Shown here one piece after another: positions 16,563 to 33,895 of a stretch of 33,895 nt of DNA (the first letter of the stretch is position 1; each line of letters starts with the position of its first letter). A program made the translations under genes and the position numbers. The notes beneath the pieces are model-generated. The model was not told the DNA's origin. It did no database searches and saw only the letters and a list, made by a program, of their open reading frames with translations. The DNA comes from a virus. The stretch lies in IMG/VR virus record IMGVR_UViG_3300023184_003014, positions 1 through 33,895 of that record. The stretch is one strand, 5' to 3'.

Positions 16563-16563
16563 C

Positions 16564-16571
16564 GGTAAATA
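16564..16571 (+). promoter_or_regulatory. Candidate late promoter for portal gene
   Basis: GGTAAATA lies 2 bases after the stop of the M15 gene. With its last base as -6, the start would be at 16577, two bases before the portal ATG, so the mRNA would be nearly leaderless. There is no Shine-Dalgarno sequence. Confidence 0.45.
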
Positions 16572-16578
16572 GTACACT

Positions 16579-18366: not shown

Positions 18367-18369
18367 ATA
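18362..18369 (+). promoter_or_regulatory. Perfect T4 late promoter octamer TATAAATA
   Basis: The octamer is an exact match to the T4 consensus and overlaps the portal stop codon. With -6 at its last base, the start falls at 18375, the A of the next ATG, so the transcript would be leaderless. The match is exact; a chance occurrence cannot be excluded. Confidence 0.5.
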
Positions 18370-18374
18370 ATATC

Positions 18375-18593
18375 ATGATACTGAACGAGCTCTACGAAAG
18401 ATCCCCATCAGCGTTTCAAGACCTAAGTCAAGACAACACGCAGCCAAAACTTGGCGATCTTCGCAAGACAAAAATCACATTAAAACAGTTGAATAAATTG
18501 CGTAAAATGCAAGACACACGATCATACGAGTACAACGACAAGCTCAAATTGATCCGCAAACAATATGCGCCTCCGGCTCAGCCTGTGGCGTAA
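18375..18593 (+). CDS. Small prohead-core-position protein (gp67-like position)
   Basis: This 72-residue protein lies between the portal and the acidic core protein, where T4 encodes gp67 (80 aa) and gp68. The visible core is RKTKITLKQLNKLRKMQ followed by YEYNDKLKLIRKQY, a basic amphipathic helix, and the end is Pro/Ala-rich. Sequence similarity to T4 gp67, which is acidic, is not evident, so the analogy is positional only. This small gene is a constant neighbour of gp20 in aquatic T4-likes. It has no Shine-Dalgarno sequence and lies directly downstream of a perfect TATAAATA. Confidence 0.7.
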   Translation: MILNELYERSPSAFQDLSQDNTQPKLGDLRKTKITLKQLNKLRKMQDTRSYEYNDKLKLIRKQYAPPAQPVA

Positions 18594-18647
18594 TATTACT
18601 CATTTGTTGCAAAAACACACCATAAACCGCTGAGTTTTTGCCTTTAA

Positions 18648-18655
18648 AGTAAATA
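18648..18655 (+). promoter_or_regulatory. Late promoter with 5'-hairpin leader for the acidic core protein
   Basis: AGTAAATA at this position predicts a start near 18661. The leader then contains TAGATT (18662-18667) pairing with AATCTA (18681-18686), a hairpin beginning at about +2, followed by a strong AGGAG at 18701-18705. Upstream, GCAAAAAC (18609-18616) can pair with GTTTTTGC (18634-18641), a possible attenuator-like hairpin. Confidence 0.5.
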
Positions 18656-18712
18656 TAGGTATAGATTTGCCAGGTTAGCGAATCTACCCAACATACTTAT
18701 AGGAGCTATTAA

Positions 18713-19555
18713 ATGAGCAACAATCGTTTTGAACAACTGATCGAATACGTCATCAATGACGAAACCGCAAAAGCAAAAGAATTATTCCATCAAATAGTGG
18801 TGGAAAAAAGCCGCGCTATCTATGAAGACCTCATGGAAAAAGAAGAAGTAGACGAAGACAACGCTATGGGCGAAGAACCCACAGAAGTTGACACAGACAT
18901 GAGTGAAGACATGGGCGGAAGCCAAGCTGCTGACATGATTGACGACGTTGAAACTGAAGAATCAGGCATGGCAGAAGATGACGAGACTGACGCTGAATTT
19001 GACGACGGCGCAGAAGAAATGGGTCATGACATGACCAGCGATATTGAAGACGAACATGACGGCGAAGGCAATATTGAAAATCGCGTGGTTGATCTTGAAG
19101 ACAAATTAGACGAACTTATGGCTGAATTTGAAGCCATGATGGGCGGCGATGACGGCATGGGCAGCGAAATGGGCGGTATGGATGACACTCCTGACATGTC
19201 TGGTATTGAAGTTCAAGACGACGAGTTTGAAACAGAAAGCCAAATGATGCCAATGGAAGAAGCTATCAGCTTAAAAGCAGCCCCAAAGCCAGTGACTTCT
19301 GAAGAAGGTGGCGTCAACAAGAAGTCCACAGTGGCCGCTAACAGTGGTGCAGCCGGTATGGCCAGCAAGCCAGTTCACACAACTGGTGACACAGCACACG
19401 GTCGTCCAGCACCATCCACAAAAGAATTGATTGGTAGAGTGGGTAATACACCTGCTCAATCAACACAAGGTCTCAAGCCTGCTACCAAGCCAACTAATGG
19501 TCAAGCTGCTGGCGTAAACACAAAGAGTCCATTGCCAGGCGGCCGTAAAGGCTAA
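18713..19555 (+). CDS. Acidic prohead core protein (gp68-like position)
   Basis: This is a 280-residue protein. Residues 1-40 are a basic/helical start (EQLIEYVINDETAKAKELFHQ), residues 40-175 are extremely Asp/Glu/Met/Gly-rich, and the last 95 residues are a Lys/Thr/Gly/Pro-rich, mostly disordered tail. Acidic internal core proteins are assembled around the scaffold and cleaved in T4-like proheads. The gene sits between the portal and the protease, where T4 gp68 lies, but is longer than gp68 (141 aa), so homology is only inferred. It has a strong AGGAG ribosome site at 18701-18705 and its own late-type promoter, suggesting high expression. Its stop is 6 bp before gp21. Confidence 0.75.
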   Translation: MSNNRFEQLIEYVINDETAKAKELFHQIVVEKSRAIYEDLMEKEEVDEDNAMGEEPTEVDTDMSEDMGGSQAADMIDDVETEESGMAEDDETDAEFDDGAEEMGHDMTSDIEDEHDGEGNIENRVVDLEDKLDELMAEFEAMMGGDDGMGSEMGGMDDTPDMSGIEVQDDEFETESQMMPMEEAISLKAAPKPVTSEEGGVNKKSTVAANSGAAGMASKPVHTTGDTAHGRPAPSTKELIGRVGNTPAQSTQGLKPATKPTNGQAAGVNTKSPLPGGRKG

Positions 19556-19561
19556 TTTACC

Positions 19562-20200
19562 ATGGTAACGTATTTACAGGAACATCTTAATTTTAATCAG
19601 GCCAAGATTCGCATCTTGTCTGAAGATAGTCCTGACGGCAAAGGAAAAACACTGTTCATGGAAGGTATATGCATTGAAGGCGGAGTAAAAAACGCCAACG
19701 AACGTGTATACCCTGTGAACGAAATTTCTCGAGCAGTAGATACTATCAACAAACAAATTGTTGAAGGCTACAGTGTAATGGGTGAAGTAGATCACCCAGA
19801 TGATCTCAAAATTAATTTAGATCGTGTGAGTCACATTATTGAAAAAATGTGGATGGACGGACACTGCGGCTATGGAAAATTAAGAATATTACCCACCCCA
19901 ATGGGACAACTGGTCAAGACCATGTTAGACTCGGGTGTAAAACTAGGGGTTTCGAGTCGTGGTTCGGGCAACGTGAACGACGGCAACGGACATGTCAGTG
20001 ACTTTGAAATAGTCACTGTTGATGTTGTTGCTCAACCCAGTGCTCCTCATGCATATCCTAGAGCCATCTATGAAGGACTTCTTAACATGAAGTATGGTCA
20101 TAAAGTTTTAGAAATAGCCAAGGATGCTGGCAAAGACAACAAGGTACAAAGATACTTGAGCGGCGAGATAACTCGTTTGATCAAAGATCTTAAAATATAA
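19562..20200 (+). CDS. 21: T4 gp21-like prohead protease
   Basis: This 212-residue serine protease matches T4 gp21 (212 aa). Motifs are a GICIEGGVKNANERVYP start, GEVDHPDD (catalytic H78), GVSSRGSG (nucleophile among S131/S132) and the ending strand of the FEIVTVDVVAQPSAPHAYP type. The enzyme assembles inside the prohead and cuts gp22, gp23 and core proteins at sites ending in (L/I)-x-E. The ATG lies 7 bp after the previous gene, with no Shine-Dalgarno sequence but no alternative start nearby. The gene order acidic core - protease - scaffold - capsid equals T4. Confidence 0.95.
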   Translation: MVTYLQEHLNFNQAKIRILSEDSPDGKGKTLFMEGICIEGGVKNANERVYPVNEISRAVDTINKQIVEGYSVMGEVDHPDDLKINLDRVSHIIEKMWMDGHCGYGKLRILPTPMGQLVKTMLDSGVKLGVSSRGSGNVNDGNGHVSDFEIVTVDVVAQPSAPHAYPRAIYEGLLNMKYGHKVLEIAKDAGKDNKVQRYLSGEITRLIKDLKI

Positions 20201-20209
20201 GGAGAGACT

Positions 20210-21298
20210 ATGTTAGATAGTTTAAAACCATTTCTAGATAGCGAACTGATCAACGAGGAAACTCGCAGTGCTATCAGTGAAGCGTGGGAAACCCAAATCA
20301 CTGAAGCACGTGAACAGGTTCGTGTAGAGCTCCGCGAGGAATTTGCACAACGCTATGAACACGACAAGACAGTGATGGTAGAAGCCTTAGACAAAATGGT
20401 AACAGAAGGTCTCGCAGGAGAATTGGCTCAAGTTATTGCTGAAAAGCAATCACTGGCCGAAGACCGCGTCAAATTCCAAACCAGCATGAAAGAATCAGCC
20501 ACAAAGTTCAACAGCTTTATGGTTACCAAACTTGCTGAAGAAATTGGCGAACTGCGCAAAGACCGCAAGATGCACTCCGAAGGAATCAATAAACTTGAGA
20601 ACTTTGTGGTGCATGCATTGGCACGTGAAATTCAAGAATTCTCACAAGACAAACGTGACGTGGTGGAAACCAAGGTACGTTTGGTACGTGAAGCACGTGG
20701 CAAACTTGAACAACTCAAATCACGATTCGTAAAAGAATCCGCTGAGAAGATGAGTCAAGCTGTTAGCAAGCATCTCAAGGCCGAACTCACACAATTGCAC
20801 GAAGACATCAAAGTTGCTCGCGAGAACAATTTTGGTCGTCGTATTTTTGAAGCATACGCAGCAGAATTTGGAGCAACTCACTTAAATGAGAACGCTGAAG
20901 TTCGTAAACTGCAAACTATGGTTGCTGCAAAGAATCGTCAATTGGGCGAAGCCATCAAACTCAGCCAGAAAGCAAAAGTTCTAGTTGAGTCAAAAGAACG
21001 CGAAATACGAATGATTCGTGAAACCAATGAGCGTGACAGCACATTGGATGAACTGCTACGTCCCTTAAACAAGGAAAAGCAAGAAGTCATGCGTAATTTG
21101 CTCGAAAGTGTCCAAACTACCCGTTTGAAAAACGCATTCGAAAAGTATCTACCAGCTGTACTAGCTGATAACAAACCAACAAGTAGCCGTAAAGTGATTG
21201 TTGAGAGTGTGTCTGAAGTAACTGGTGATAAATCTGCCCGTAGCCCCGAAGAAGACCGTTCCAACGTGATCGACATCAAGCGCCTGGCAGGGCTCTAA
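20210..21298 (+). CDS. 22: T4 gp22-like prohead scaffolding protein
   Basis: This 362-residue protein is almost entirely charged helix with heptad-like Glu/Lys/Leu/Ala patterns, as expected for the coiled-coil scaffold gp22 (269 aa in T4). The position between gp21 and gp23, and a GGAGAG ribosome site just before the ATG, support the call. Several (L/I)-x-E triplets are potential gp21 cleavage sites. It shapes the capsid interior and is degraded during maturation. The helical composition is seen; the homology is mainly from synteny. Confidence 0.88.
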   Translation: MLDSLKPFLDSELINEETRSAISEAWETQITEAREQVRVELREEFAQRYEHDKTVMVEALDKMVTEGLAGELAQVIAEKQSLAEDRVKFQTSMKESATKFNSFMVTKLAEEIGELRKDRKMHSEGINKLENFVVHALAREIQEFSQDKRDVVETKVRLVREARGKLEQLKSRFVKESAEKMSQAVSKHLKAELTQLHEDIKVARENNFGRRIFEAYAAEFGATHLNENAEVRKLQTMVAAKNRQLGEAIKLSQKAKVLVESKEREIRMIRETNERDSTLDELLRPLNKEKQEVMRNLLESVQTTRLKNAFEKYLPAVLADNKPTSSRKVIVESVSEVTGDKSARSPEEDRSNVIDIKRLAGL

Positions 21299-21319
21299 AA
21301 ACATAATAAGGAGACTTAA

Positions 21320-22531
21320 ATGTCACAAAATCTATTAGAATCTCGTTGGGACGATACCAAAGAAGCCCTTCTTGAAGGACTCAAAGGTAGCAAGCGTAAC
21401 AACATGAGTGTGATCTTAGAAAACACTCGCAAGTACTTGAAAGAAAACGCAACAGGCGGCTCAACCGGTAGTGGCAACATTGCTACACTGAATCGCGTTA
21501 TTCTTCCAGTTATCCGTCGCGTGATGCCAACTGTTATTGCTAACGAGTTGGTTGGTGTTCAGCCTATGACTGGCCCAGTTGGTCAAATTCACACCTTGCG
21601 TGTGCGTTACGCCAACACCATGAACGACAACTCAGCAGCCGCTACTAGCACCGCTGCTGGCCAAGAAGCATTGAGCCCATTCTTGATTGCTCAGGCTTAT
21701 TCTTCAGCAAGCTCAGTGAGTGCTGGTGTGGTTAGCCCAACCCAGAACATCTACACTGGTGCTAACACAGCAGTGTTAGAAGGCTCCGGCGGTCGTCAGA
21801 TCTCCGTGCAGATCCTGAAACAAGCTGTTGAAGCTAAGACACGTAAGTTGCAAGCTCGTTGGACATTTGAAGCTGCTCAAGACGCACAAGCCATGCATGG
21901 TATTGACGTTGAAGCAGAGATCATGGCTGCTCTTGCACAAGAGATTACAGCTGAGATTGACCAAGAAATCTTGTTGAGTCTGCGTTCATTGGCCACAACT
22001 GAATTCACATACAACCAAGCTACTGTTTCAGGTACAGCTACATTCGTTGGTGACGAACACGCCGCTTTGGCAGTGTTGATCAACCGTGTTGCTAACTTGA
22101 TCGCTCAGCGTACACGTCGTGGCGCTGGTAACTACGCTGTTGTGAGTTCAGCTGCGTTGACAGTGTTGCAAAGTGCAACAACTTCAGCTTTTGCTCGTAC
22201 CACAGAAGGCACCTTCGAAGCACCTACAAACACCAAGTTTGTTGGTACATTGAACGGTTCTATGAGAGTGTTTGTTGACAGCTATGCCAGCGATACAACT
22301 CCAGTTCTGGTTGGCTACAAAGGCTCTTCAGAAGCTGACGCTCCTGCATTCTACTGCCCATACATTCCTTTGATGAGCAGTGGCGTTGTGTTGGATCCAA
22401 CAACCTTTGAACCAGTGGTGTCATTCATGACACGTTATGGTTTCATCGAGTTGACCAACACCGCAAGTTCATTCGGCAATGCCGGTGACTATGTTGGCGA
22501 GATTGCCGTTTCGAATTTGAGTTTCAGCTAA
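21320..22531 (+). CDS. 23: T4 gp23-like major capsid protein
   Basis: This 403-residue protein has the gp23 signature NRVILPVIRRVMPTVIANEL followed by VGVQPMTGPVGQIHTLRVRY, and later LEAKTRKLQARWTFE-type and AMHGIDVEAEIMAAL segments. Length is between T4 gp23 (521 aa) and other aquatic gp23 proteins; the insertion domain of T4 is missing. A gp21-type cleavage site, L-K-E at 40-42, lies before a Gly/Ser/Thr-rich stretch, so the mature protein would begin at residue 43. A strong AAGGAG (21308-21313) is spaced 6 bp from the ATG, and the gene is followed by a strong terminator, both consistent with very high expression. Confidence 0.97.
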   Translation: MSQNLLESRWDDTKEALLEGLKGSKRNNMSVILENTRKYLKENATGGSTGSGNIATLNRVILPVIRRVMPTVIANELVGVQPMTGPVGQIHTLRVRYANTMNDNSAAATSTAAGQEALSPFLIAQAYSSASSVSAGVVSPTQNIYTGANTAVLEGSGGRQISVQILKQAVEAKTRKLQARWTFEAAQDAQAMHGIDVEAEIMAALAQEITAEIDQEILLSLRSLATTEFTYNQATVSGTATFVGDEHAALAVLINRVANLIAQRTRRGAGNYAVVSSAALTVLQSATTSAFARTTEGTFEAPTNTKFVGTLNGSMRVFVDSYASDTTPVLVGYKGSSEADAPAFYCPYIPLMSSGVVLDPTTFEPVVSFMTRYGFIELTNTASSFGNAGDYVGEIAVSNLSFS

Positions 22532-22556
22532 TCTTCGATTGGTATTTTACCAAATC

Positions 22557-22582
22557 AAAAAAGGGCCGCAAGGCCCTTTTTT
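22557..22582 (+). terminator. Rho-independent terminator of the head-gene block
   Basis: An 11-bp perfect stem, AAAAAAGGGCC paired with GGCCCTTTTTT, is closed by a GCAA tetraloop and includes the T-run. It lies 26 bp after the gp23 stop. Confidence 0.95.
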
Positions 22583-22613
22583 GTTGGCTGTAATTTTTAA
22601 CAATATATAAAAG

Positions 22614-23633
22614 ATGTTAGAACATTACTGGGACCGAGATTGGGATTCTGCAATCAGCCATAGATCTCAATTTGAATATCTTGACCAACACACATTGTCA
22701 AATCAACTGATATTTTTTGACGATGCACACCTGCAACTCAATCATGGATGTGACCGTGCAGTCAGCATGATAACACAGGCAGTGGCAGCCACAGGAAGAT
22801 TTCCTGTGCTGTGCTTGGACGGAAATCCTCACCCAGCAGAACGCTATTACCGTGAACTGTGTGAACACTTGGATCCAACGTCTTTTTTTGTTTTTCATCC
22901 TGACATACGAAAAGAAGTCAGTGACGAATTTGCGAACATGGCTCCGTGGCCCAGTTGGTTGTTTTATCAGCAGAAGAATAAAGATTTTCAACTGGGTCAG
23001 CCTAAACAATATAGAGTTGGATTTTTATCTGGCAGTTCAAGATATCACAGAATCAAATTGTTTCGTGACATCCATCCATACATTACTAGACGAGACGTAG
23101 TGGTTATCAACAAGATTGGTGACTTTCATCACAGTGTGCCAAAACACAAACTAACATCTGAAGAAATGGAAATCTGGTGGCAAGAATTGCCTTATAGCAG
23201 CCGGCCAGAATTTTATGATTACACTGGATCAGGCAACACTCCGCCGGACAACATGGGCAGTAACAATCATGTGGCCTACACAGCCTGCGTAAACATCACA
23301 GGTGAAACATGCAATGATTACCAAGTGTTGTTGAGTGAGAAAACTTGGAAAGCATATCAAAGCCAATGCCTTGTGATAAACTTTGGACCAAGCCAAACCA
23401 CAACAACTTTAAAAAGTTTTGGATTTGAAATTTGGGACCAGTTTGATCAAGTTGGCTCACATTCTTATAAAACTCAGTTGATCATGGCAATGCTGCAGAG
23501 AGATGATATTGAGCATTTGTATTATCAACACCTTCCAATGATACAACACAATTTTGAATTGTTCAACAGCAAGGTTCTCTTGGAAAAAATAGCTGAGCCT
23601 GCACTAAACAAATTGAAAAACTTGTTAGCATGA
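22614..23633 (+). CDS. Glycosyltransferase-like protein (fucosyltransferase/exostosin-type C-terminus)
   Basis: This is a 339-residue protein. The C-terminal part has the pattern SEKTWKAYQSQCLVINFGPSQTTTTLKSFGF, divided here as SEKTWKAYQSQ and LKSFGF, then a late SHSYKT. This resembles the (S/T)EK-xxK-xxxxxxxPI-x-FG...LKxLGF-F-DxSYD motif of GT10/GT47-like phage proteins. The N-terminal half is not recognised. The gene lies just after the gp23 terminator, preceded by TATATAAA 3 bases before the ATG, which may be a poor late promoter. It overlaps the next, similar gene by four bases. The sugar donor and acceptor are unknown; virion or surface glycan modification would fit the late position. 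Confidence 0.65.
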   Translation: MLEHYWDRDWDSAISHRSQFEYLDQHTLSNQLIFFDDAHLQLNHGCDRAVSMITQAVAATGRFPVLCLDGNPHPAERYYRELCEHLDPTSFFVFHPDIRKEVSDEFANMAPWPSWLFYQQKNKDFQLGQPKQYRVGFLSGSSRYHRIKLFRDIHPYITRRDVVVINKIGDFHHSVPKHKLTSEEMEIWWQELPYSSRPEFYDYTGSGNTPPDNMGSNNHVAYTACVNITGETCNDYQVLLSEKTWKAYQSQCLVINFGPSQTTTTLKSFGFEIWDQFDQVGSHSYKTQLIMAMLQRDDIEHLYYQHLPMIQHNFELFNSKVLLEKIAEPALNKLKNLLA

Positions 23634-24754
23634 ATATTGTACAATGGTTGTATGCAGATCCTGCTGATGGTCCAAGCCAGCCGTTAATAAGCATCTTGCA
23701 ACGTCAGTTTCCAACTGCAACACTGTGCTCAGACTTTAAACAGATTCTGAATAACATCAACACCTGGCCGGGTAAACATGTGGTACTGATGCTGCCAAGG
23801 CAAGATGGAACTATTCCACTAGAACAATCAAAGAAAATTTGGCAGAACGAGTTGCATATTTTTTGTGAAAAAAAGATTGAATGTGTGTTGTTTGTTACAG
23901 AAATTTTCAACATAAACGATTCGTTTGACTGGATTTGTTTGATACCTAACCTGTTGATAGTCACACCATGTCAACATAATTTTGGAAAAAATAATTATCC
24001 TTGGATAACTTGGCAACATTGGTTGCATGATGCAGCTGATTCATACAAACAACCTGCTCTGCTTGAGCATGTGGATAAGTTTGACCCAACTACAACCAAG
24101 CCCATGTTGTTTGATGTACTACTGGGCGGAGAGCGACCGTATAGAACTTTGATACACAATTGGATTGAACAAGACTCTGTGTTGTCGTCAAAAACAATCA
24201 TGACCTATTACGGTGTGGAGACTGCTCGTCCTAAGTTTATCTATGAGCCAGATATGATTGTGCCAGAAACAAGAAATTTTCACAGTGGCGCACATTGTTT
24301 TTTTAACGGTGTTGAAATTCGCATAAGTTCGGTGCCACCGGTATCTGTCTATAACCAATGTGCATATAGTCTGGTTACTGAAACATCAGCAGAACAAGAT
24401 TTTGTGTTCTTTACAGAAAAAATTGCCCGAGTGATGATTTGCCAACGATTGTTTATTGTGTTATCTAGCTATCGATATTTGCACTTTTTGAGAGAAGCTG
24501 GATTTCAAACATTTGGCAATATCATTAACGAAAGTTATGATTTAGAAGTTGATGATCATCGTCGATGGAGAATGGCATTTGAACAAATGCAGCAGTTGGC
24601 CCGTAGAGATCAGCAAGAAATACTACAACTGATTGATCCTATAGTTATGCACAATCGACAGGTGTTGTTGACCACGGACTGGCATGATAAAATGTCAACC
24701 CAAGTCAGCCAAGTGCTTGAAGCACGACTTGAGTTAAATTTTAAACCAGCTTAG
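23630..24754 (+). CDS. Second glycosyltransferase-like protein, related to its upstream neighbour
   Basis: This 374-residue protein has the same C-terminal pattern as the gene before it: FFTEKIARVMICQRLFIVLSSYRYLHFLREAGFQTFGNIINESYD, whose landmarks are TEK, LREAGF, TF and ESYD. These match the fucosyltransferase/exostosin-like family better than the first copy does. The N-terminal half differs. Starting in an ATGA overlap, it is a translationally coupled pair with the previous gene. Its 3' end overlaps the convergent GT9-like gene by 21 bp, so the two cannot both be fully transcribed without antisense contact. Function in glycan synthesis is an inference. Confidence 0.65.
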   Translation: MNIVQWLYADPADGPSQPLISILQRQFPTATLCSDFKQILNNINTWPGKHVVLMLPRQDGTIPLEQSKKIWQNELHIFCEKKIECVLFVTEIFNINDSFDWICLIPNLLIVTPCQHNFGKNNYPWITWQHWLHDAADSYKQPALLEHVDKFDPTTTKPMLFDVLLGGERPYRTLIHNWIEQDSVLSSKTIMTYYGVETARPKFIYEPDMIVPETRNFHSGAHCFFNGVEIRISSVPPVSVYNQCAYSLVTETSAEQDFVFFTEKIARVMICQRLFIVLSSYRYLHFLREAGFQTFGNIINESYDLEVDDHRRWRMAFEQMQQLARRDQQEILQLIDPIVMHNRQVLLTTDWHDKMSTQVSQVLEARLELNFKPA

Positions 24755-25885
24755 ATACTTTTCAATTTTCTTAATCACTGGTTGCCAGTCACCAAATGTT
24801 TCTTGACGGAACAGTCGTGCAGTGGTATACCAAGGCGAACTGTCTGTATTTTGCATCCAACGCCAGCAAGTACCATATAGATTTAACGGCATCCACAGCG
24901 GACGGCCCAATGCTCCTGCCAGGTGCGCAGCAGCAGTGTCCACAGAAATTACCAAGTCAAGATGATGCATTAATGCGGCGCTGTCTGCAAAACTTGCAAT
25001 AGTTCCAGGATAGCAAGTTACTCCTGCTGCTTGCATGATTGCGCTTTCTTCGTCTGATGCATCCACCTGCAGACTGATCCATTCATGCTCGGGATGATTA
25101 CTAACAAACTCTGCCATTACATCAACAGGCATACTCTTGTGTTGATTGATCCAGGAGTCTTTTCTTCCTGACCAGGCAATGCCAATACGCATGCGATTTT
25201 TAGGCCCAAGACGCTTGGCCCAGTCTGCAACTTTTTCATTATCAACCGTGATGTATTGCAAGTGATGTTGAAGTTGACTGACTCCGATGTTGAGTATTCT
25301 GGGCACACTCATCATGCTGACCCAGTAGTCAAAATTCCCAATATCTTCGTTGTCAGATGTCACACTTAGTATTGACTCTGGAGTATTAATCAGCAATGGC
25401 TTGATGCTAGAAGTCACATGTATTCTTAGCTTGGCTCCTAGATCCTGCAACGGCCCGCAAAATCTCAAAAACTGTATCTGATCTCCAAGCCCCTGTTCAC
25501 CTACTACTAGCAGTGTCTTGCCTTTTAAATCTTGACCGTTCCACTCTGGCACAGACAGTTTTGGTTTGGTGCCAGCCAAGTGCTCGTATCTCCAGCGACT
25601 TTCGTACAGTGGCCATCCTTTAGCATAGTCACCAATGGCTAGATATGCTACCCCTAGATTGAATTCGGAAGTGACGTTAGTAGGATCTAAAATCCTGGCA
25701 TGCTCTAAAAACGGTATTGACCGTGCTGGTTGCCCGCACTCTCTCAATACATTGCCATAATTGTTCCATGCACTTGGTGAATCAGGGTCGTCAACAAATG
25801 CCTGTGCATAGCATTTAAGGGCTTCTAGCGGACGGTGTTGGGCTCTAAGTTCGTTGCCTTGAGCAATCAAAAGGTCAGTGTTCAT
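24734..25885 (-). CDS. TPR - glycosyltransferase family 9-like protein
   Basis: This 383-residue protein has two parts. Residues 1-105 carry tetratricopeptide repeats (for example ALKCYAQAFVDDPDSPSAWNN and the next NYGNVLRECGQP and LEHARILDPTN helices). Residues about 120-383 contain VGEQGLGDQIQFLRF, GIAWSGRKDS and ISVDTAAAHLAGALGRPLW, the last being the GT9/heptosyltransferase C-terminal donor-binding pattern, followed by WRWM and a PWYTTARLFRQ segment. This combination is common in aquatic phages and bacteria. It probably transfers a sugar onto a polysaccharide or protein. It is transcribed against the flow of the surrounding late genes, with its own late-type octamer and a start that would be leaderless. 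Confidence 0.83.
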   Translation of the reverse strand: MNTDLLIAQGNELRAQHRPLEALKCYAQAFVDDPDSPSAWNNYGNVLRECGQPARSIPFLEHARILDPTNVTSEFNLGVAYLAIGDYAKGWPLYESRWRYEHLAGTKPKLSVPEWNGQDLKGKTLLVVGEQGLGDQIQFLRFCGPLQDLGAKLRIHVTSSIKPLLINTPESILSVTSDNEDIGNFDYWVSMMSVPRILNIGVSQLQHHLQYITVDNEKVADWAKRLGPKNRMRIGIAWSGRKDSWINQHKSMPVDVMAEFVSNHPEHEWISLQVDASDEESAIMQAAGVTCYPGTIASFADSAALMHHLDLVISVDTAAAHLAGALGRPLWMPLNLYGTCWRWMQNTDSSPWYTTARLFRQETFGDWQPVIKKIEKYLSWFKI

Positions 25886-25890
25886 GGTGG

Positions 25891-25898
25891 TATTTAAG
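25891..25898 (-). promoter_or_regulatory. Candidate leaderless late promoter for the GT9-like gene
   Basis: Read leftward, the sequence is CTTAAATA; with its last base as -6, transcription would start at 25885, the A of the ATG. There is no Shine-Dalgarno sequence (only CCACC before the ATG). It agrees with the T4 late octamer at 6 of 8 positions. Confidence 0.4.
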
Positions 25899-25925
25899 CT
25901 GCATTCAACACCATTTTACTTTTTT

Positions 25926-25933
25926 CATAAATA
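25926..25933 (+). promoter_or_regulatory. Late promoter CATAAATA with hairpin leader for the 26019 gene
   Basis: CATAAATA matches T4 late consensus at 7 of 8 positions and the NATAAATA form known from cyanophage S-PM2. The predicted start is about 25939, and AACGC (25940-25944) pairs with GCGTT (25951-25955) at the very 5' end of the mRNA. The 80-base leader ends in AAGGAG (26006-26011), spaced 7 bases from the ATG. Confidence 0.6.
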
Positions 25934-26018
25934 CTTGTCAACGCAAATCGGCGTTTTATGCAGCTCACCACTGCGTAGCAGCTAGAACCTGCATCGGGCT
26001 TCTATAAGGAGAAATCAA

Positions 26019-26855
26019 ATGGGAAGAGCTCTTAAAATTCAAAAAACAAATATTGGCGCAGGTACAACTGTTGCCGGATCACCACCAGTTACCACATACA
26101 ATCAAAACGTATTGACAGACGCTGGTTATCCAAATTTTGGATCATTAACCAATCCAGTATACAACTCACCAGTTCAAACTCTTGACTCATCTCAGTACTT
26201 GGGTGTGGTTGGCGGAATATTTACTACCAGTACTCCAAGTGCAACAAATCCAGAAATTTACTGTTTGGTTAATATTACATTAGCTAACGGCACTTCTACA
26301 TACGATATTGCTAATGAATACGGAGGTCGTATTATCCGTCAAAAAGGTTCACACAAGTTCCTGGTTGCATACACATACGCAAGCACTGCTGACGAAGACA
26401 TGGTTGTTGGACAAGCATACCAAATTTCTTCTCTTGGTACCACCAATTGGCAAGCATGTGGTGCACCAAACGGCGCCGCGGTAGGCGATATTTTTACTGT
26501 TACTGCTATCGGTTCAGGCACTGGCACAGCCTACCCAGTGGGACAATGTGTGTTGTCAAACACAGCTACGCCAGCGGCAGGATACATGAGTATAAGTTAT
26601 TCAGTAGGCGACAGTTCTGCTGTATACGCCAGTTACATCACCAACAAATGGGTGCGTGACTGGAACGGCATGACTTATGGCAATTACAGCAACAGTAATC
26701 TTGGTACTAACAACCAAAGTAACGAAAACTTCTATCCAACCAACTTCTTCACAGACGAAGGCACAGTTACATGGTCCGGCGCAGAAGTTATTGCAGGTGC
26801 TCAAGCACAAAATGGCACATTGCAGTTGGCTCAAATTAATAACGTTACATCTTAA
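26019..26855 (+). CDS. Virion-type protein with marine-phage GQAYxIxSLGTTxW motif
   Basis: This 278-residue protein is Gly/Thr/Asn/Ser-rich with no signal peptide. Residues about 128-165 contain GQAYQISSLGTTNW and a GDIFTVTAIGSGTGTA end, a motif that recurs in structural and fibre proteins of aquatic phages (form G-x-Y-x-I-x-S-x-GTTDFT-x-IGA). The C-terminal part (FYPTNFFTDEGTVTW, then AQAQNGTLQL) is repetitive beta-sheet-like. It has its own late-type promoter, 5'-hairpin leader and a strong AAGGAG, and so is likely abundant. A role as head or tail decoration, or fibre accessory, is plausible; no specific T4 gene is matched. Confidence 0.65.
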   Translation: MGRALKIQKTNIGAGTTVAGSPPVTTYNQNVLTDAGYPNFGSLTNPVYNSPVQTLDSSQYLGVVGGIFTTSTPSATNPEIYCLVNITLANGTSTYDIANEYGGRIIRQKGSHKFLVAYTYASTADEDMVVGQAYQISSLGTTNWQACGAPNGAAVGDIFTVTAIGSGTGTAYPVGQCVLSNTATPAAGYMSISYSVGDSSAVYASYITNKWVRDWNGMTYGNYSNSNLGTNNQSNENFYPTNFFTDEGTVTWSGAEVIAGAQAQNGTLQLAQINNVTS

Positions 26856-26873
26856 TTAGATTTGTATCCAACG

Positions 26874-26903
26874 TCCTCCTTGCTAACTACAAGGAGGATT
26901 TTT
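26874..26903 (+). promoter_or_regulatory. Hairpin that is terminator-like and hides the next Shine-Dalgarno site
   Basis: TCCTCCTTG (26874-26882) pairs perfectly (9 bp) with CAAGGAGGA (26890-26898), with a 7-base loop CTAACTA and a TTTTT run (26899-26903) directly before ATG 26904. The 3' arm includes the AAGGAGG ribosome site for the DUF115-like gene. It may end the upstream transcript, block translation of the downstream gene, or both. Confidence 0.7.
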
Positions 26904-27476
26904 ATGAGTGTAGCATTTGTTTGTGGCAACGGGGTCAGCCGAAAAGATATAGATTTGTCTAAATTAAAATTGCAAGGATCCATCTACGGCTGCAATGCAA
27001 TGTACAGAGAGTTTGAACCAGACTGCTTGATTGCTACAGATCGTGCTATTTCTGAACAGATACAAAAGTCTGGCTACAGCAAAACTCATAGATTTTACAC
27101 TCGTAAACCTCTAGCGGCACTTGGTGCTTTGTCGCTGCCAAAAAAATACTATGGCAACAGCTCAGGGCCTAATGCTATTGCACTTGCAGCACTAGATGGG
27201 CACGAAACTATCTATCTGCTGGGATTTGATATGGGCCCAACTGTGAATGCCAAGTTCAACAACTTGTACGCTGGATCAGAATTTTACAAACCAATTGACG
27301 CTGCTCCTACTTACACTGGCAATTGGATTCGACAGATTGCTGCCATTGCTGATGACTTTCCCAAAGTCACATTCATTAGAGTACTCGGGTCTACAACGGC
27401 CAAGATTGCAGATTTTGACAAATTAAAAAATTTTCAACACATAACAATTGACAAATTTTGCACTGCAATGATGTAA
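26904..27476 (+). CDS. DUF115-like / glycosyltransferase-29-like hypothetical protein
   Basis: This 190-residue protein starts MSVAFVCGNGVSRKDIDLSK, and has YGCNAMYREFEPDCLIATD and GFDMG segments with a Gly-rich N-terminal turn (CGNGVSR). These resemble DUF115 (MptE-like) proteins and the SiaT-like family that begin with a nucleotide-sugar binding G-N-G-x-S motif. I chose ATG 26904 instead of 26862, because a strong AAGGAGG lies 6 bases upstream, although that site is folded into a hairpin. It lies between a virion-type gene and the fibre. A role in fibre or surface glycosylation is a guess. Confidence 0.6.
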   Translation: MSVAFVCGNGVSRKDIDLSKLKLQGSIYGCNAMYREFEPDCLIATDRAISEQIQKSGYSKTHRFYTRKPLAALGALSLPKKYYGNSSGPNAIALAALDGHETIYLLGFDMGPTVNAKFNNLYAGSEFYKPIDAAPTYTGNWIRQIAAIADDFPKVTFIRVLGSTTAKIADFDKLKNFQHITIDKFCTAMM

Positions 27477-27515
27477 AGTTCTTTGTCTTTGGCAAAATTT
27501 TAACAAGCCAATCAT

Positions 27516-27523
27516 GGTAAATA
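27516..27523 (+). promoter_or_regulatory. Candidate late promoter for the giant fibre gene
   Basis: GGTAAATA predicts a start at about 27529 and a 13-base leader (AGAGACTATATCC) without a good Shine-Dalgarno sequence before ATG 27542. Confidence 0.5.
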
Positions 27524-27541
27524 TGTTTAGAGACTATATCC

Positions 27542-30500
27542 ATGACACAACAAATAATTGATACTGGCGCACAACCCGATGACGGGCAAGGCGATCCGTT
27601 ACGAACAGCTTTCAGTTATACAAACGATAATTTCACTGAAATCTATCAAGCCGGCCCAGTAGGCAGCAATGTACGCATTGCCAATAATACCATAACCACC
27701 ACTGTTATCAACAGTGATTTGGTATTGAGCCCGTCGGGTATTGGCAAAATTCAAGTCAACAATAATGTATTGCCGCGATCGGATGATGTGTATGAGCTTG
27801 GCTCATCAACCCAGCGATTCAATGCCATTTATCTGGGCACTGGTGGGCTTAACTCCAATGGTATAATCACCACAACTGGCAACATCAGTGCTGGATACTT
27901 TATTGGTGACGGTAGCTTATTGACCGGTATAACAGCAAATGCTGGTAGCAAGTTGTCAAACGGCACCAGCAATATCAACATTCCGTCATCAGGATCTAAC
28001 ATTTTAGTTTCAGTGTCAGGAACTGCAAATGTTGTAACTTTTTCTAACACTGGCGCATACATTATTGGCACAGTTAGTGCCACCGGCAATATAAGTGGTG
28101 ATTATATTTTAGGTAACGGTGCGTTACTGACCGGACTCAATCTCAATTATTCAAATGCCAACGTTGCAGCATACTTGCCAACATACACAGGCAACCTAGT
28201 ATCACTGACAGGCCCAATTATTACTACTGCTAATATTACAGGTGGCAATGTTGCAACTGGTAATGTACGAGCTGGAAACATAGTTTCTAGCGGCATAGTT
28301 AGTGCTACTGGAAACATTACTGGCAGATACTTCATTGGTGATGGTAGTCAACTGACCAATTTACCGGTAAGCAATTATTCAAATGCCAACGTTGCAGCAT
28401 ACTTGCCAACATACACCGGTAGCTTGGCATCACTGACAGGCCCAGTTATTACCACAGCCAATGTAACTGGTGGTAATTTACAAACTTCTGGAACAATTAG
28501 TGCTACTGGTAATATCACTGGTGGTAACGTTGCTACTGGTAGAGTCAATGCCGGTAATATCACAGTAAGTGGCCCGGTATCAGCTACTGGCAATATCACA
28601 GGCAGTTACTTCATTGGTAACGGCTCACAATTAACTGGAATTGTTACCAACTACTCAAATGCCAATGTGGCTGCCTACTTGCCCACGTATACAGGCAGTC
28701 TAGCATCATTGACAGGTCCTGTTATTACCACAGCCAATGTTGTTGGTAGTAATATTTTGACCACTGGTGTAATATCAACTGCTGGCAATATCACAGGTGG
28801 TAACATTGCTACTGGTAGAGTTAATGCCGGCAACGTTACTGTTAGCGGCCCAATTTCTGCAACTGGCAATGTAACCGGTAGTTACTTTATTGGTGATGGC
28901 AGTCAATTAACCAACTTACCAGCTGGCAATTATTCAAATGCCAATGTAGCCGCCTACTTGCCCACATACACCGGTAGTCTAGCATCACTAACAGGTCCCG
29001 TAATTACTACCAACAACATTGCTGGCAGTAGTTTGTCTATTGTTGGTAACATAACTGGTGGCAATGTTGATACTGGTAGAGTCAATGCCGGCAACGTCAC
29101 TGTAAGTGGTCCTGTATCGGCCACTGGCAATATTACAGGCAGTTACTTCATTGGTGATGGTAGCTTACTAACCAACTTACCAGCTGGCAATTATTCAAAT
29201 GCCAACGTTGCCTCATACTTGCCAACGTATACTGGTAGTTTAGATTCACTAACTGGTCCTGTTGTTACCACAGGCAACATCACTGGTGGCAATTTAAGAA
29301 CAGCAGGTGCAATTAGTTCAACTGGTAATATCACCAGTGGTAATGTTGATACTGGTAGAGTCAATGCCGGTAACGTCACTGTAAGTGGTCCTGTATTGGC
29401 CACTGGCAATATTACAGGCAGTTACTTCATTGGTAACGGCTCACAACTTACTGGTATTGCTGCAAATTATTCAAATGCCAATGTAGCCGCTTACTTGCCC
29501 ACATACACAGGCAGTCTAGCATCACTGACTGGTCCAGTTATTACCACAAGTAGTATTGCAGGTAGTAGTTTGTCTATTGTTGGCAATGTCACTGGCGGCA
29601 ATGTTGACACTGGTAGAGTCAATGCCGGTAACGTCACTGTAAGTGGTCCTGTCTCTGCAACTGGCAATATAACAGGTAGCTACTTTATTGGTGATGGTAG
29701 CTTACTAACCAACTTACCAGCTGGCAATTATTCAAATGCCAATGTGGCTGCTTATTTGCCCACTTATACCGGTAGTTTAGATTCACTAACTGGACTGGTT
29801 ACTACTACTGCTAATGTCACTGGTGGCAACTTAAAAACTAGTGGCACAATCAGTGCCACTGGTAATATTACTGGCGGCAATGTTGCTACTGGCACTATAA
29901 ATTCAGGCAATATATTAAGCAGTGGAGCTATATCAGCCACTGGCAACATCACTGGCAGTACGATCACTAGTGGTAACATTTTACCGGCAGCCAATGTAAC
30001 ATATGATCTAGGCACATCAACGCAGCGATGGAAAGATTTGTGGTTGAGCAACAGCACAATTTATTTGGGTGATGCTCGAATTTCAGCCAATGCTACAGCC
30101 GTCGTTGTTACTAATCCTGCAGGCGGAAATACTGTTCTTCAAGGCACACCAGGCAATAATACTGTTTTAAGTAATATAGTTTCTGCGTCAGGAAATATCA
30201 CAGGCGGCAACGTTACTACTACTGGACTGCTGTCAGTCACTGGCAACATAACTGGTGGTAATTTAGATATTGGAAGAATCAATGCTGGCAACATTACTGT
30301 AAGTGGTCCGTTGTCAACTACTGGGAATGTAACTGGTAGTTACTTTATTGGTGACGGTAGTTTACTAACCAACTTACCGGCTGGCAATTATTCAAATGCC
30401 AATGTTGCTTTGTACTTGCCAACATACACTGGTAGTTTGCCATCGTTAACTGGCGCAGTTATAACAACCGCCAATGTGATTGGCGGAAATGTAAAAACCA

Positions 30501-33500
30501 CTGGCACAATCAGTGCTACTGGAAATATCACCGGCGGTAACGTTGATACTGGAAATGTCACAGCTGGCAATGTCAGTGCATTTGGCAATATTACAGGCAG
30601 TTACTTCCTTGGTGACGGTAGTTTACTAACCAACTTACCGGCTGGCAATTATTCAAATGCCAATGTTGCTTCTTACTTGCCAACATACACTGGTAGTTTG
30701 CCATCGTTAACCGGACCGGTTATTACATTAAGCAATATCACTGGTAGCAATCTAAGAACATCAGGCTCAATTACTGCCACTGGAAATATCACTGGTAACA
30801 ATGTTGACACCAATACAGTTATTGCAAATGCTGTTTTATCAGCCGGTATAATTTCAACTGCAGGTAACGTTGTTGCTGCTAACATTGTTGCTGCTAGAGT
30901 AAATGCAACTACTCTCACTGCTAGTGCTAATGTTATTGCTGGCAATGTGACCACTATTGGTTTGATATCGGCAACAGGCAATATTAATGGTGGTAATTTC
31001 AATGCACCAGGCGGATCGTTTACTGGGTTTACTATCAGTGTCAACGGAACAGTCACTGGCGGCAATTTAACCACACTTGGAATTGTATCAGCATTTGGTA
31101 ATATCACCGGCGGCAACATAGATACTGGCAACATTCATGCTGGTAACGTAATTTCAAATGCTGCCATAACAGCCATTGGCAACATATACACCAGTCAATA
31201 TTTCATTGGTAACGGTGCATTTATAACTGGGCTGGCCACCTACTCAAATGCCAATGTGGCTGCATTCTTGCCCACATACACAGGCAACTTGGTATCGCTA
31301 ACAGGCCCTGTTATCACAACAGCCAACATTGTTGGTGCCAATATCACTGCCAGTGGCATGATATCTGCTGCTGGAACCATAACATCTGCTGCCAACATTA
31401 CTGGCAGCAATTTAATAACTTCTGGATTGATAACTGCTACAGGAAACTTAACTGCTGGCAATTTGATCACCAATGGTCTAGCATCCATAACAGGCAATAT
31501 CACTAGCGGCAATGTACTGACTGCTGGGCAAGTATCAGCAACAGGTAACATTACAGGCAGTAACATTCGAGCGTCGGGTGCTATTAGTGCGTCCGGCAGT
31601 ATCACAACTGACGGTAGTCTCACATTAGGAAACACTGGCAAAATAAATTTTGGTACAACTGGATCAAACATTTACCTGGTCAATTTAAGCCCAACCACAC
31701 TGTTGATCAATGCTGAAAAAGTAGATTTCACTGGCAGCGAAGTAACAGCAGCCAGCATTACTGGCGGTAATGTTAATGCTCCTAACAATCTCAATGCTGG
31801 AAATGTTTTAGCCAATGGTATAATTTCAACCACTGGAAACTTGTATGCTTCAAATCTTCAACTGTCTGGATCTTTTGCAGTAGCAAGTTTGAATTCTGCT
31901 GGTAATATCAACGCTGGCAATTTACGAACAACTGGACAAGTAACTGCCACAGGCAATGTAGCTGGTGGGAACATATTAACCAATGGATTAGTATCAGCAG
32001 CTGGAAATGTCACTGGCAACTACTTCATTGGTAATGGCTCATTGCTTACTGGTATTGTGGTGTCTGGCGGCACGTCAATTGACAACGGCACATCAAATGT
32101 CAAAGTTGGTGCACCTAACTCCAATGTTACAATTGGAGTTAGTGCTGTTGGCAATGTAGCAGTATTTTCGCCCACTGGACTCAGCGTACTTGGAAATGTT
32201 GCTGGCACATTCTTGTTGGGCAACGGTGCATTCATAACCGGCGTGGCCAAAGCAACTTCAGCAGACAGTGTGGCCAACGGAACTAGTAATGTAAACATTC
32301 CAACAATCAACGGCAACGTAACAGTTGGAGTAGCTGGCACTAGTAACATTGCAGTTTTCTCCACACGCGGACTTAGTGTACTTGGCAACGTAACTGGCAA
32401 TTACATATTAGGTAACGGTGCATTTATCACTGGCCTACCAGCTGGATATAGCAATGCAGATGTTGCCAACTACATGCCAACCTACTCGGGTAACTTGCCA
32501 AATTTAACTGGATTGGTTTCTACCACAGGCAATGTTTCTGGCAACTATATTTTAGGTAACGGTGCGTTTATCACTGGCCTACCAGCTGGATATAGCAATG
32601 CAGATGTTGCCAACTACATGCCAACCTACTCGGGTAACTTGCCAAATTTAACTGGATTGGTTTCTACCACAGGCAATGTTTCTGGCAACTATATTTTAGG
32701 TAATGGTGCCTTGTTGACCGGAGTGATTACTTCAGTTGCTAATATCAACAACGGCACATCAAATATCAATATTGCCACGTCAGGCGGCAACATCACGGTC
32801 GACGTCGGCGGCACATCAAATGTAGTGGTGTTTGCTACATCGGGCGAATATGTAACTGGTTTGCTAAGTGTAAGTGGCAATATCATAGGCGGTAATTTAC
32901 TAACCAATGGATCAATTAGTGCAACTGCTAACATAATCAGTGGTAATCTTTTAACATCGGGATTGATCAGTTCAACTGGCAATGTTATAGGTGGTAATTT
33001 ACTAACCAGTGGTCTAATCAGTTCTACAGGCAATATTGTAGCATCAAATTTTGTTGGTAATTTAATCCCACCTCCAGGAGGCGTAGTAAGCACCACTGGA
33101 AACATTTCTGGTGGTAATGTTTTAACATCAGGATTTGTTTCAGCAGCCGGCAATGTTACCGGCAACTACTTCATTGGTAACGGCAGCCAATTGACTGGTG
33201 TAACAGCTTCTAGTGTAAATGCCAATGCTTTAGTTGGCAATACATTAAGTTCAAATGTACTGTATTCAAGTTTGACTTCTGTTGGCACGCTTGGAAATTT
33301 AAGCGTAACTGGCAACATAGATGCAGGTAACTTACGAACAACTGGACTTGTAACTTCAACTGGTAACATAATTGGTGGTAATGTTCTAACTGCTGGATTA
33401 GTAAGTGCAACTGGTAATGCTACCGCTGGAAATGTTTTAACTGCTGGACTTGTATCGGCAACTGCCAATATAACTGGTGGTAATGTTCTAACTGCTGGAT

Positions 33501-33895
33501 TAGTAAGTGCAACTGGTAATGCTACTGCTGGCAATTTCTTAACTGCTGGACTTGTATCGGCAACTGCCAATATAACTGGTGGTAATGTTCTAACTGCTGG
33601 ATTAGTAAGTGCAACTGGTAATGCTACTGCTGGCAATTTCTTAACAGCCGGATTGATCTCTGCAACTGCCAATATAACTGGTGGTAATGTTCTAACTGCT
33701 GGATTAGTAAGTGCAACTGGTAATGCTACTGCTGGCAATTTCTTAACAGCCGGATTGATCTCTGCAACTGGTAATGCTACTGCTGGCAATTTCTTAACAG
33801 CCGGATTGATCTCTGCAACCGGTAATGCTACTGCTGGCAATTTCTTAACAGCCGGATTGATCTCTGCAACTGGTAATGCTACTGCTGGCAATTTC
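27542..33895 (+). CDS. Giant repetitive tail fibre-like protein (3' end missing)
   Basis: The frame runs from ATG 27542 to the right edge without a stop in the stretches I translated, giving at least 2118 codons. The N-terminus (IDTGAQPDDGQGDPLRTAF, then YTNDNFTEIY) matches the N-terminal segment of many aquatic phage fibres (form TG-x-x-PNDG-GDPLRTAF-x-x-x-N-NF-E). A YELGSSTQRF motif near residue 85 and YDLGTSTQRWKDLWL near residue 820 resemble those seen before S74-type chaperone ends. The body is made of (S/A)TGNITGGN-type repeats, Gly/Asn/Thr/Ser-rich, forming likely beta-helical trimer shafts, with a larger module (NYSNANVAAYLPTYTG) recurring every 262-278 bp. It probably binds host receptors. 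The antisense strand is also open because of the repeats. The chaperone/C-terminus is beyond the window. Confidence 0.85.
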   Translation, partial: MTQQIIDTGAQPDDGQGDPLRTAFSYTNDNFTEIYQAGPVGSNVRIANNTITTTVINSDLVLSPSGIGKIQVNNNVLPRSDDVYELGSSTQRFNAIYLGTGGLNSNGIITTTGNISAGYFIGDGSLLTGITANAGSKLSNGTSNINIPSSGSNILVSVSGTANVVTFSNTGAYIIGTVSATGNISGDYILGNGALLTGLNLNYSNANVAAYLPTYTGNLVSLTGPIITTANITGGNVATGNVRAGNIVSSGIVSATGNITGRYFIGDGSQLTNLPVSNYSNANVAAYLPTYTGSLASLTGPVITTANVTGGNLQTSGTISATGNITGGNVATGRVNAGNITVSGPVSATGNITGSYFIGNGSQLTGIVTNYSNANVAAYLPTYTGSLASLTGPVITTANVVGSNILTTGVISTAGNITGGNIATGRVNAGNVTVSGPISATGNVTGSYFIGDGSQLTNLPAGNYSNANVAAYLPTYTGSLASLTGPVITTNNIAGSSLSIVGNITGGNVDTGRVNAGNVTVSGPVSATGNITGSYFIGDGSLLTNLPAGNYSNANVASYLPTYTGSLDSLTGPVVTTGNITGGNLRTAGAISSTGNITSGNVDTGRVNAGNVTVSGPVLATGNITGSYFIGNGSQLTGIAANYSNANVAAYLPTYTGSLASLTGPVITTSSIAGSSLSIVGNVTGGNVDTGRVNAGNVTVSGPVSATGNITGSYFIGDGSLLTNLPAGNYSNANVAAYLPTYTGSLDSLTGLVTTTANVTGGNLKTSGTISATGNITGGNVATGTINSGNILSSGAISATGNITGSTITSGNILPAANVTYDLGTSTQRWKDLWLSNSTIYLGDARISANATAVVVTNPAGGNTVLQGTPGNNTVLSNIVSASGNITGGNVTTTGLLSVTGNITGGNLDIGRINAGNITVSGPLSTTGNVTGSYFIGDGSLLTNLPAGNYSNANVALYLPTYTGSLPSLTGAVITTANVIGGNVKTTGTISATGNITGGNVDTGNVTAGNVSAFGNITGSYFLGDGSLLTNLPAGNYSNANVASYLPTYTGSLPSLTGPVITLSNITGSNLRTSGSITATGNITGNNVDTNTVIANAVLSAGIISTAGNVVAANIVAARVNATTLTASANVIAGNVTTIGLISATGNINGGNFNAPGGSFTGFTISVNGTVTGGNLTTLGIVSAFGNITGGNIDTGNIHAGNVISNAAITAIGNIYTSQYFIGNGAFITGLATYSNANVAAFLPTYTGNLVSLTGPVITTANIVGANITASGMISAAGTITSAANITGSNLITSGLITATGNLTAGNLITNGLASITGNITSGNVLTAGQVSATGNITGSNIRASGAISASGSITTDGSLTLGNTGKINFGTTGSNIYLVNLSPTTLLINAEKVDFTGSEVTAASITGGNVNAPNNLNAGNVLANGIISTTGNLYASNLQLSGSFAVASLNSAGNINAGNLRTTGQVTATGNVAGGNILTNGLVSAAGNVTGNYFIGNGSLLTGIVVSGGTSIDNGTSNVKVGAPNSNVTIGVSAVGNVAVFSPTGLSVLGNVAGTFLLGNGAFITGVAKATSADSVANGTSNVNIPTINGNVTVGVAGTSNIAVFSTRGLSVLGNVTGNYILGNGAFITGLPAGYSNADVANYMPTYSGNLPNLTGLVSTTGNVSGNYILGNGAFITGLPAGYSNADVANYMPTYSGNLPNLTGLVSTTGNVSGNYILGNGALLTGVITSVANINNGTSNINIATSGGNITVDVGGTSNVVVFATSGEYVTGLLSVSGNIIGGNLLTNGSISATANIISGNLLTSGLISSTGNVIGGNLLTSGLISSTGNIVASNFVGNLIPPPGGVVSTTGNISGGNVLTSGFVSAAGNVTGNYFIGNGSQLTGVTASSVNANALVGNTLSSNVLYSSLTSVGTLGNLSVTGNIDAGNLRTTGLVTSTGNIIGGNVLTAGLVSATGNATAGNVLTAGLVSATANITGGNVLTAGLVSATGNATAGNFLTAGLVSATANITGGNVLTAGLVSATGNATAGNFLTAGLISATANITGGNVLTAGLVSATGNATAGNFLTAGLISATGNATAGNFLTAGLISATGNATAGNFLTAGLISATGNATAGNF
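28142..30715 (+). repeat. Array of 262-278 bp modules in the fibre gene
   Basis: The codon block for NYSNANVAAYLPTYTG recurs at about 28145, 28373, 28651, 28926, 29191, 29464, 29726, 30384 and 30648, with a further copy near 31237. Neighbouring copies are usually 262-278 bp apart (about 88-93 codons); the first interval is 228 bp and one gap of 658 bp holds a YDLGTSTQRW segment. Units are diverged but align in frame. Confidence 0.85.
32411..32698 (+). repeat. Recent 144-bp (48-codon) tandem duplication in the fibre gene
   Basis: Bases 32423-32559 (137 bp) are identical to 32567-32703 at an offset of 144 bp. Outside this segment the copies diverge, as expected for a recent in-frame duplication or gene conversion. 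Confidence 0.92.
33308..33895 (+). repeat. 51-bp (17-codon) minisatellite array at the right edge
   Basis: About 11.5 consecutive 51-bp units encode 17-residue repeats of the form TGNATAGNFLTAGLISA. The first copies are diverged and alternate with TANITGGNVLTAGLVSA; the last units are nearly identical and continue past the window edge. No unit breaks the frame. Confidence 0.93.

Follow-up and report, generated by a model that had tools for sequence, protein, structure and literature searches.

What does a hairpin do that lies between two genes, looks like the terminator of the first and buries the ribosome site of the second? The question is raised by a 33,895-nucleotide stretch of viral DNA (the window; IMG/VR record IMGVR_UViG_3300023184_003014), where a first-pass annotation had described a terminator-like hairpin hiding a Shine–Dalgarno (SD) site. 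The hairpin is real and far from a chance arrangement, and the first-pass interpretation of it holds in part. It occupies 26874–26898 with T5 behind it and the ATG of the next gene, P0001, at 26904. On the plus strand, positions 26874–26906 read TCCTCCTTG-CTAACTA-CAAGGAGGA-TTTTT-ATG. The 5′ arm TCCTCCTTG (26874–26882) is an anti-SD arm, complementary to the SD AAGGAGG contained in the 3′ arm CAAGGAGGA (26890–26898), and between them is a 7-nt loop, CTAACTA (26883–26889; family consensus nTANNTA), within which TAACTA (26884–26889) is a candidate weak −10 box of a late promoter. The T5 tract (26899–26903; T5–T8 in nearly all relatives) forms both a terminator-like U-tract and the spacer from SD to ATG.

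The stem comprises 9 perfect pairs, or 10 with a G26873–T26899 wobble, and has the make-up of an intrinsic terminator, with 5 G–C pairs and T5–T8 directly after. The isolated hairpin has a folding energy of −15.2 kcal/mol, and the fold of the surrounding 121-nt region has a z of −2.26, equal stability being reached in 3 of 200 shuffles; dinucleotide shuffling of the 51-nt intergenic sequence yields a perfect stem of at least 9 pairs at a frequency of 5e-5. It tops the list of terminator-like hairpins for 16500–33895 and is the single significant match in the window to our family model, R1. As R1 matches once per genome in 10 relatives, a repeated genome-wide element is ruled out. No Rfam family reaches its gathering score over the hairpin (RsaOG is sub-threshold, at 25.4 bits against a cut-off of 50), and a 161-bp DNA query against annotated phages finds only short stretches of partial similarity, in Campylobacter and Staphylococcus phages, none spanning most of the query.

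The window derives from a T4-like phage, as seen from its portal and major capsid matches; among annotated phages the capsid protein is nearest to those of large phages, Phosso and PA5oct among them, and several relatives' contigs are ~340 kb long. Upstream of the hairpin is P0002 (26019–26855, plus strand, 278 aa), ending 48 nt before the P0001 ATG. A late-type promoter box, CATAAATA (25926–25933, plus strand), heads this operon, and ~6 nt after it begins the freshwater-2 RNA (RF02980; 25939–26021, plus strand, by Rfam match), the leader of P0002, which also precedes P0002 in the relatives tested. In relatives, each of the 102 distinct sequences upstream of P0002 keeps the TAAATA core of the box ahead of freshwater-2 and the gene. 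The hairpin is a second conserved cis-element in a freshwater-2-led operon, though a separate RNA of other structure ~0.85 kb downstream of the leader. P0002 had been called a virion gene, a label that no result here supports: the protein has no match among annotated phages and no confident PHROG, and its structure model is poor, with fold matches that carry no meaning. A P0002–P0001 translational fusion or stop readthrough is ruled out, the frame between the genes not being conserved (114, 44 and 39 across the three frames).

P0001 (26904–27476, plus strand, 190 aa) has a confident model (pLDDT 93.6). A plain Foldseek search returned nothing at E ≤ 0.001, and a second structural look found Maf glycosyltransferase (5mu5, Z 12.8) and the CstII sialyltransferase (Z 10.7); in sequence there are weak matches to PF01973 and CST-I. 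Because of the Maf and CstII matches, the DUF115-like label given at first pass holds at the level of the fold, and P0001 is a predicted glycosyltransferase-like protein. The next gene is a repeat-rich, possibly fibre-like ORF of at least 2118 aa (27542–33895), open at the contig end; as this ORF is preceded by a separate TAAATA at 27518, the unit between the hairpin and that promoter probably consists of P0001 alone. Elsewhere, a near-symmetric terminator-like hairpin, AAAAAAGGGCC..GGCCCTTTTTT (22556–22583), usable on both strands, stands right after the major capsid gene. Beyond the capsid gene are three ORFs (22614–25885), of which the minus-strand ORF matches TPR and glycosyltransferase family 9, so that sugar-related genes may cluster here.

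A first pattern scan, a biased set, found the same hairpin before the same gene at 23 loci besides that of the window (24 in all). Relatives were also collected by protein searches alone, with P0002 and with P0001, giving sets blind to the hairpin; gene calls in relatives are simple longest-ORF calls, and all relative counts are limited by kinship among the sequences. In these blind sets the hairpin is present at 135 of 135 distinct P0002 3′ ends and at 132 of 134 distinct P0001 starts, the two exceptions being distant marine multi-domain proteins. Its arms are diverse in sequence (TCCTCCTTG/CAAGGAGGA, TCCTCCCAG/CTGGGAGGA, TCCCCACA/TGTGGGGA, TCCCTGCAG/CTGTGGGGA). Over 48 distinct sequences, 98.5% of stem cells are paired against 86.6% in shuffles, 56 cells show two-sided changes against 15.5, and the covariation score is 0.438 against 0.197, none of 500 shuffles being as high on any of the three measures. 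Two-sided change occurs at six stem pairs, pairing in slid controls stays near 50%, and the protein tree implies as many as 22 changes at a stem position. The compensatory changes in the 5′ arm that the first-pass annotation had proposed to look for are therefore many, and the counterexample it had named, AAGGAGG kept with its complementary arm lost, is found in no standalone relative.

As the arms vary widely and yet pair and covary, this comparison demonstrates selection on the stem as an RNA structure. With paired mutations seen over 130 or more relatives, the hairpin is shared by a sizeable group of T4-like phages from fresh water. That it is a functionless inverted repeat arisen by chance, for which its short length alone speaks, has a negligible probability and is refuted by the covariation and the universal retention. 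Occlusion of the SD by the stem, of whatever strength, should follow from the structure.

The stem is also retained where there is less to hide. Across 196 members the SD is GGAGG in 113, GGGGG in 15 and GGGG in 58, with stem and T-run kept regardless. In seven relatives only 13 of 2320 gene starts have a T-run of at least five before the ATG, and all six hairpin genes seen among those starts do. One phage, represented by three sequences identical here (L203, L204 and L205), has lost P0001 and kept the hairpin with T7; its stem is longer (−20.9 kcal/mol, against −15.2 kcal/mol in the window), its loop is CCTGC, and TANNTA has gone along with P0001. Conversely, in L092 a P0001 relative stands behind a different gene, with hairpin and loop kept. 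These cases, one each way, fit a terminator that belongs to P0002 and a loop that belongs to P0001. Because hairpin and T-run outlast the loss of P0001, albeit in a single event, a terminator role is pointed to, and the hairpin is likely to act as the terminator of the P0002 transcript. It could be no more than that, with the SD overlap a mere economy of space exerting no translational control; the hairpin's survival after gene loss and the retention of the stem over weakened SDs agree with this, but the loop motif is tied to P0001 and in no standalone relative found is the SD left outside the stem, making so simple a function improbable. By raw counts (45/46 against 0/126), a stronger loop core strikingly goes with a weaker SD, as a balance of dosage would have it; these counts reduce to 2–7 independent pairs, however, and are not significant.

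Beyond the first-pass description, the comparison brings out an invariant loop with a likeness to late promoters. All 200 distinct hairpins have the loop nTANNTA; this set includes members found by pattern, though no search pattern specified the loop. The closing pair of the 7-nt loop is conserved. The cores are TACATA (104), TAAGTA (38), TAACTA (24), TATATA (16), TAAATA (10) and TAATTA (8), each at most one mismatch from TAAATA. Double mismatches number 0 against 42 expected were the two positions independent, a deficit inflated by relatedness, yet the core changes ~30 times on the tree. The window's own loop, CTAACTA, has neither the exact T4 late promoter TATAAATA nor a TAAATA core.

A gp55-like late sigma relative is encoded in all seven relatives examined for it (the window itself is a fragment), and the TAAATA promoters that accompany such a sigma in T4 are present in relatives as well. 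In seven relatives, TAAATA before the ATG clusters at 4–7 nt (150 genes) and at 15–24 nt (144 genes). Enrichment at 4–7 nt is 15.7-fold for TAAATA, 6.9 for TAAGTA, 3.8 for TAACTA, 2.5 for TACATA (5 cases) and 2.2 for both TATATA and TAATTA, so the six most enriched variants are the six loop cores; TAGATA (0.7) is not enriched, nor are most changes at positions 1, 2, 5 and 6. TACATA, the commonest loop core, resembles a promoter only weakly: in one genome the intergenic fraction of TACATA is not above that of control hexamers, and it is none of the 15 one-mismatch variants among orthologous promoters. The loop box, 15–16 nt before the ATG, sits at the edge of the late-box cluster at 16–24 nt, and a promoter there would consequently give a leader of only ~9–10 nt. 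SD hairpins around TAAATA at other genes number 18 against 3.8 expected at a score of 16, and 8 against 0.5 at a score of 20; with one control hexamer set, strong hairpins are also somewhat in excess. Individual cases in relatives, in which an exact TAAATA is enclosed by a hairpin with its 3′ arm extending into the SD region, an arrangement also seen in T4 gene e, belong to the gene starts G003:C1:93787 and 214031, G001:C1:42982, G009:C1:62141 and G002:C1:335953 (0-based).

A late promoter within the loop is contested on account of TACATA, an unproven promoter variant; given the weak promoter likeness of TACATA and the scarcity of exact TAAATA among the loops, we give such a promoter about even odds, and a terminator is the more likely of the two functions. 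Our main reading, to which we assign a probability of roughly 45%, is that a ~31-bp element combines a terminator for P0002, a lock on the SD and a weak in-loop late promoter for P0001. This single-copy element would divide the late gene P0002, with its own promoter at 25926, from the glycosyltransferase-like P0001. Transcripts reading in from P0002 would fold the hairpin, and the U-tract would probably stop many of them just before the P0001 ATG. In read-through RNA the stem would cover the SD, allowing only poor translation of P0001. In a third and least certain step, the nTANNTA loop DNA would serve as a weak late −10 box for RNA polymerase carrying the gp55-like sigma. Transcription might then start ~6 nt past the box, inside the 3′ arm (~26895), a spacing taken from the T4 convention and the 5-nt peak of TAAATA before the ATG. 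The resulting short-leader mRNA, AGGAUUUUUAUG, would lack the 5′ arm and have its SD free, and the expected outcome is low late expression of P0001 independent of P0002 transcripts.

A simpler scheme, possible but rather unlikely, retains the terminator and the SD lock and dispenses with the promoter: P0001 would be made only from a minority of read-through RNA, the stem being opened by breathing or by ribosomes and the loop being kept for folding or termination. It covers the structure, the T-run and the gene-loss case, and accords with the unproven standing of TACATA as a promoter. The hairpin, moreover, starts ~12–18 nt past the P0002 stop, within a zone where translation is reported to be able to lower termination (PMC4824070). 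This scheme leaves unexplained the 200 of 200 TANNTA loops, their six cores matching promoter tolerance, and the loss of TANNTA alongside P0001. The loop might instead be recognized by a protein or RNA, of phage or host origin, acting as a gate on the SD or on termination, which we regard as unlikely. T4 gp43, which binds its operator hairpin with the loop UAAC (PMC3014915), provides the precedent; an invariant UA..UA in a 7-nt loop, the conserved closing pair and the disappearance of TANNTA with P0001 would all suit such a site. The permitted middle bases, however, track promoter tolerance, and there is no sign of a wider regulon, the element occurring once in each of 10 relatives' genomes. 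The element resembles the gp43 operator in being a conserved-loop hairpin near a ribosome site, with UAAC also in the window's loop, and differs from it in having no polymerase gene downstream, an nUANNUA loop and a terminator-like U-tract.

The closest known systems are the SD-hiding hairpins of T4 e, soc and I-TevI (PMC3014915, PMC2988022). In the leader hairpins of e, soc, 49 and I-TevI the SD is in the stem, and for e and I-TevI late promoters lie in the region encoding the 5′ arm. Common to the e/I-TevI type and the present element are a T4-like phage whose late sigma is of the gp55 type, an SD in a stable stem (here with compensatory change) and a candidate late box within the hairpin, such that late RNA would be without the 5′ arm. 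Here, in contrast, the geometry of a U-tract terminator immediately precedes the ATG, and the box, located in the loop, usually departs from consensus by one base. Because the upstream P0002 transcript is itself late, unlike the e/I-TevI case, dosage rather than timing is suggested. Retention after loss of the downstream gene and the T5–T8 tract are shared with intrinsic (Rho-independent) terminators, whereas the 3′ arm serving as SD and the U-tract as spacer of the next gene are not; the conserved 7-nt loop also departs from the 4-nt loop usual in T4 terminators. The most fitting class for the element is T4-type hairpin control (gene e/I-TevI type), in a variant form that is combined with an intrinsic terminator.

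If the main reading is true, these phages accommodate a transcription stop, promoter and translation lock within ~31 bp and set the ratio of two adjacent late proteins without a trans-acting regulator. More broadly, and more tentatively, one such segment may serve at once as terminator and as the next gene's late promoter, ribosome site and lock, its loop shaped by sigma recognition and its stem by RNA folding, and be retained in a single copy to divide the operon throughout a sizeable group of T4-like phages from fresh water. Retention of the stem despite SD weakening or gene loss, and the freshwater-2 RNA and late promoter heading the same operon, likewise go beyond the first-pass description. 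As at least 130 natural variants vary stem, SD and loop separately, the division of labour is directly testable.

One further observation concerns TAAATA itself, which ends 4–7 nt before the ATG at 150 of 2320 gene starts in seven relatives (G001–G006 and G009) and, in the window, 5–7 nt before four genes, the portal gene included (14233, 16566 and 18364 on the plus strand; 25896 on the minus strand). Such closeness of box and ATG hints that leaderless late mRNAs may be numerous in these phages.
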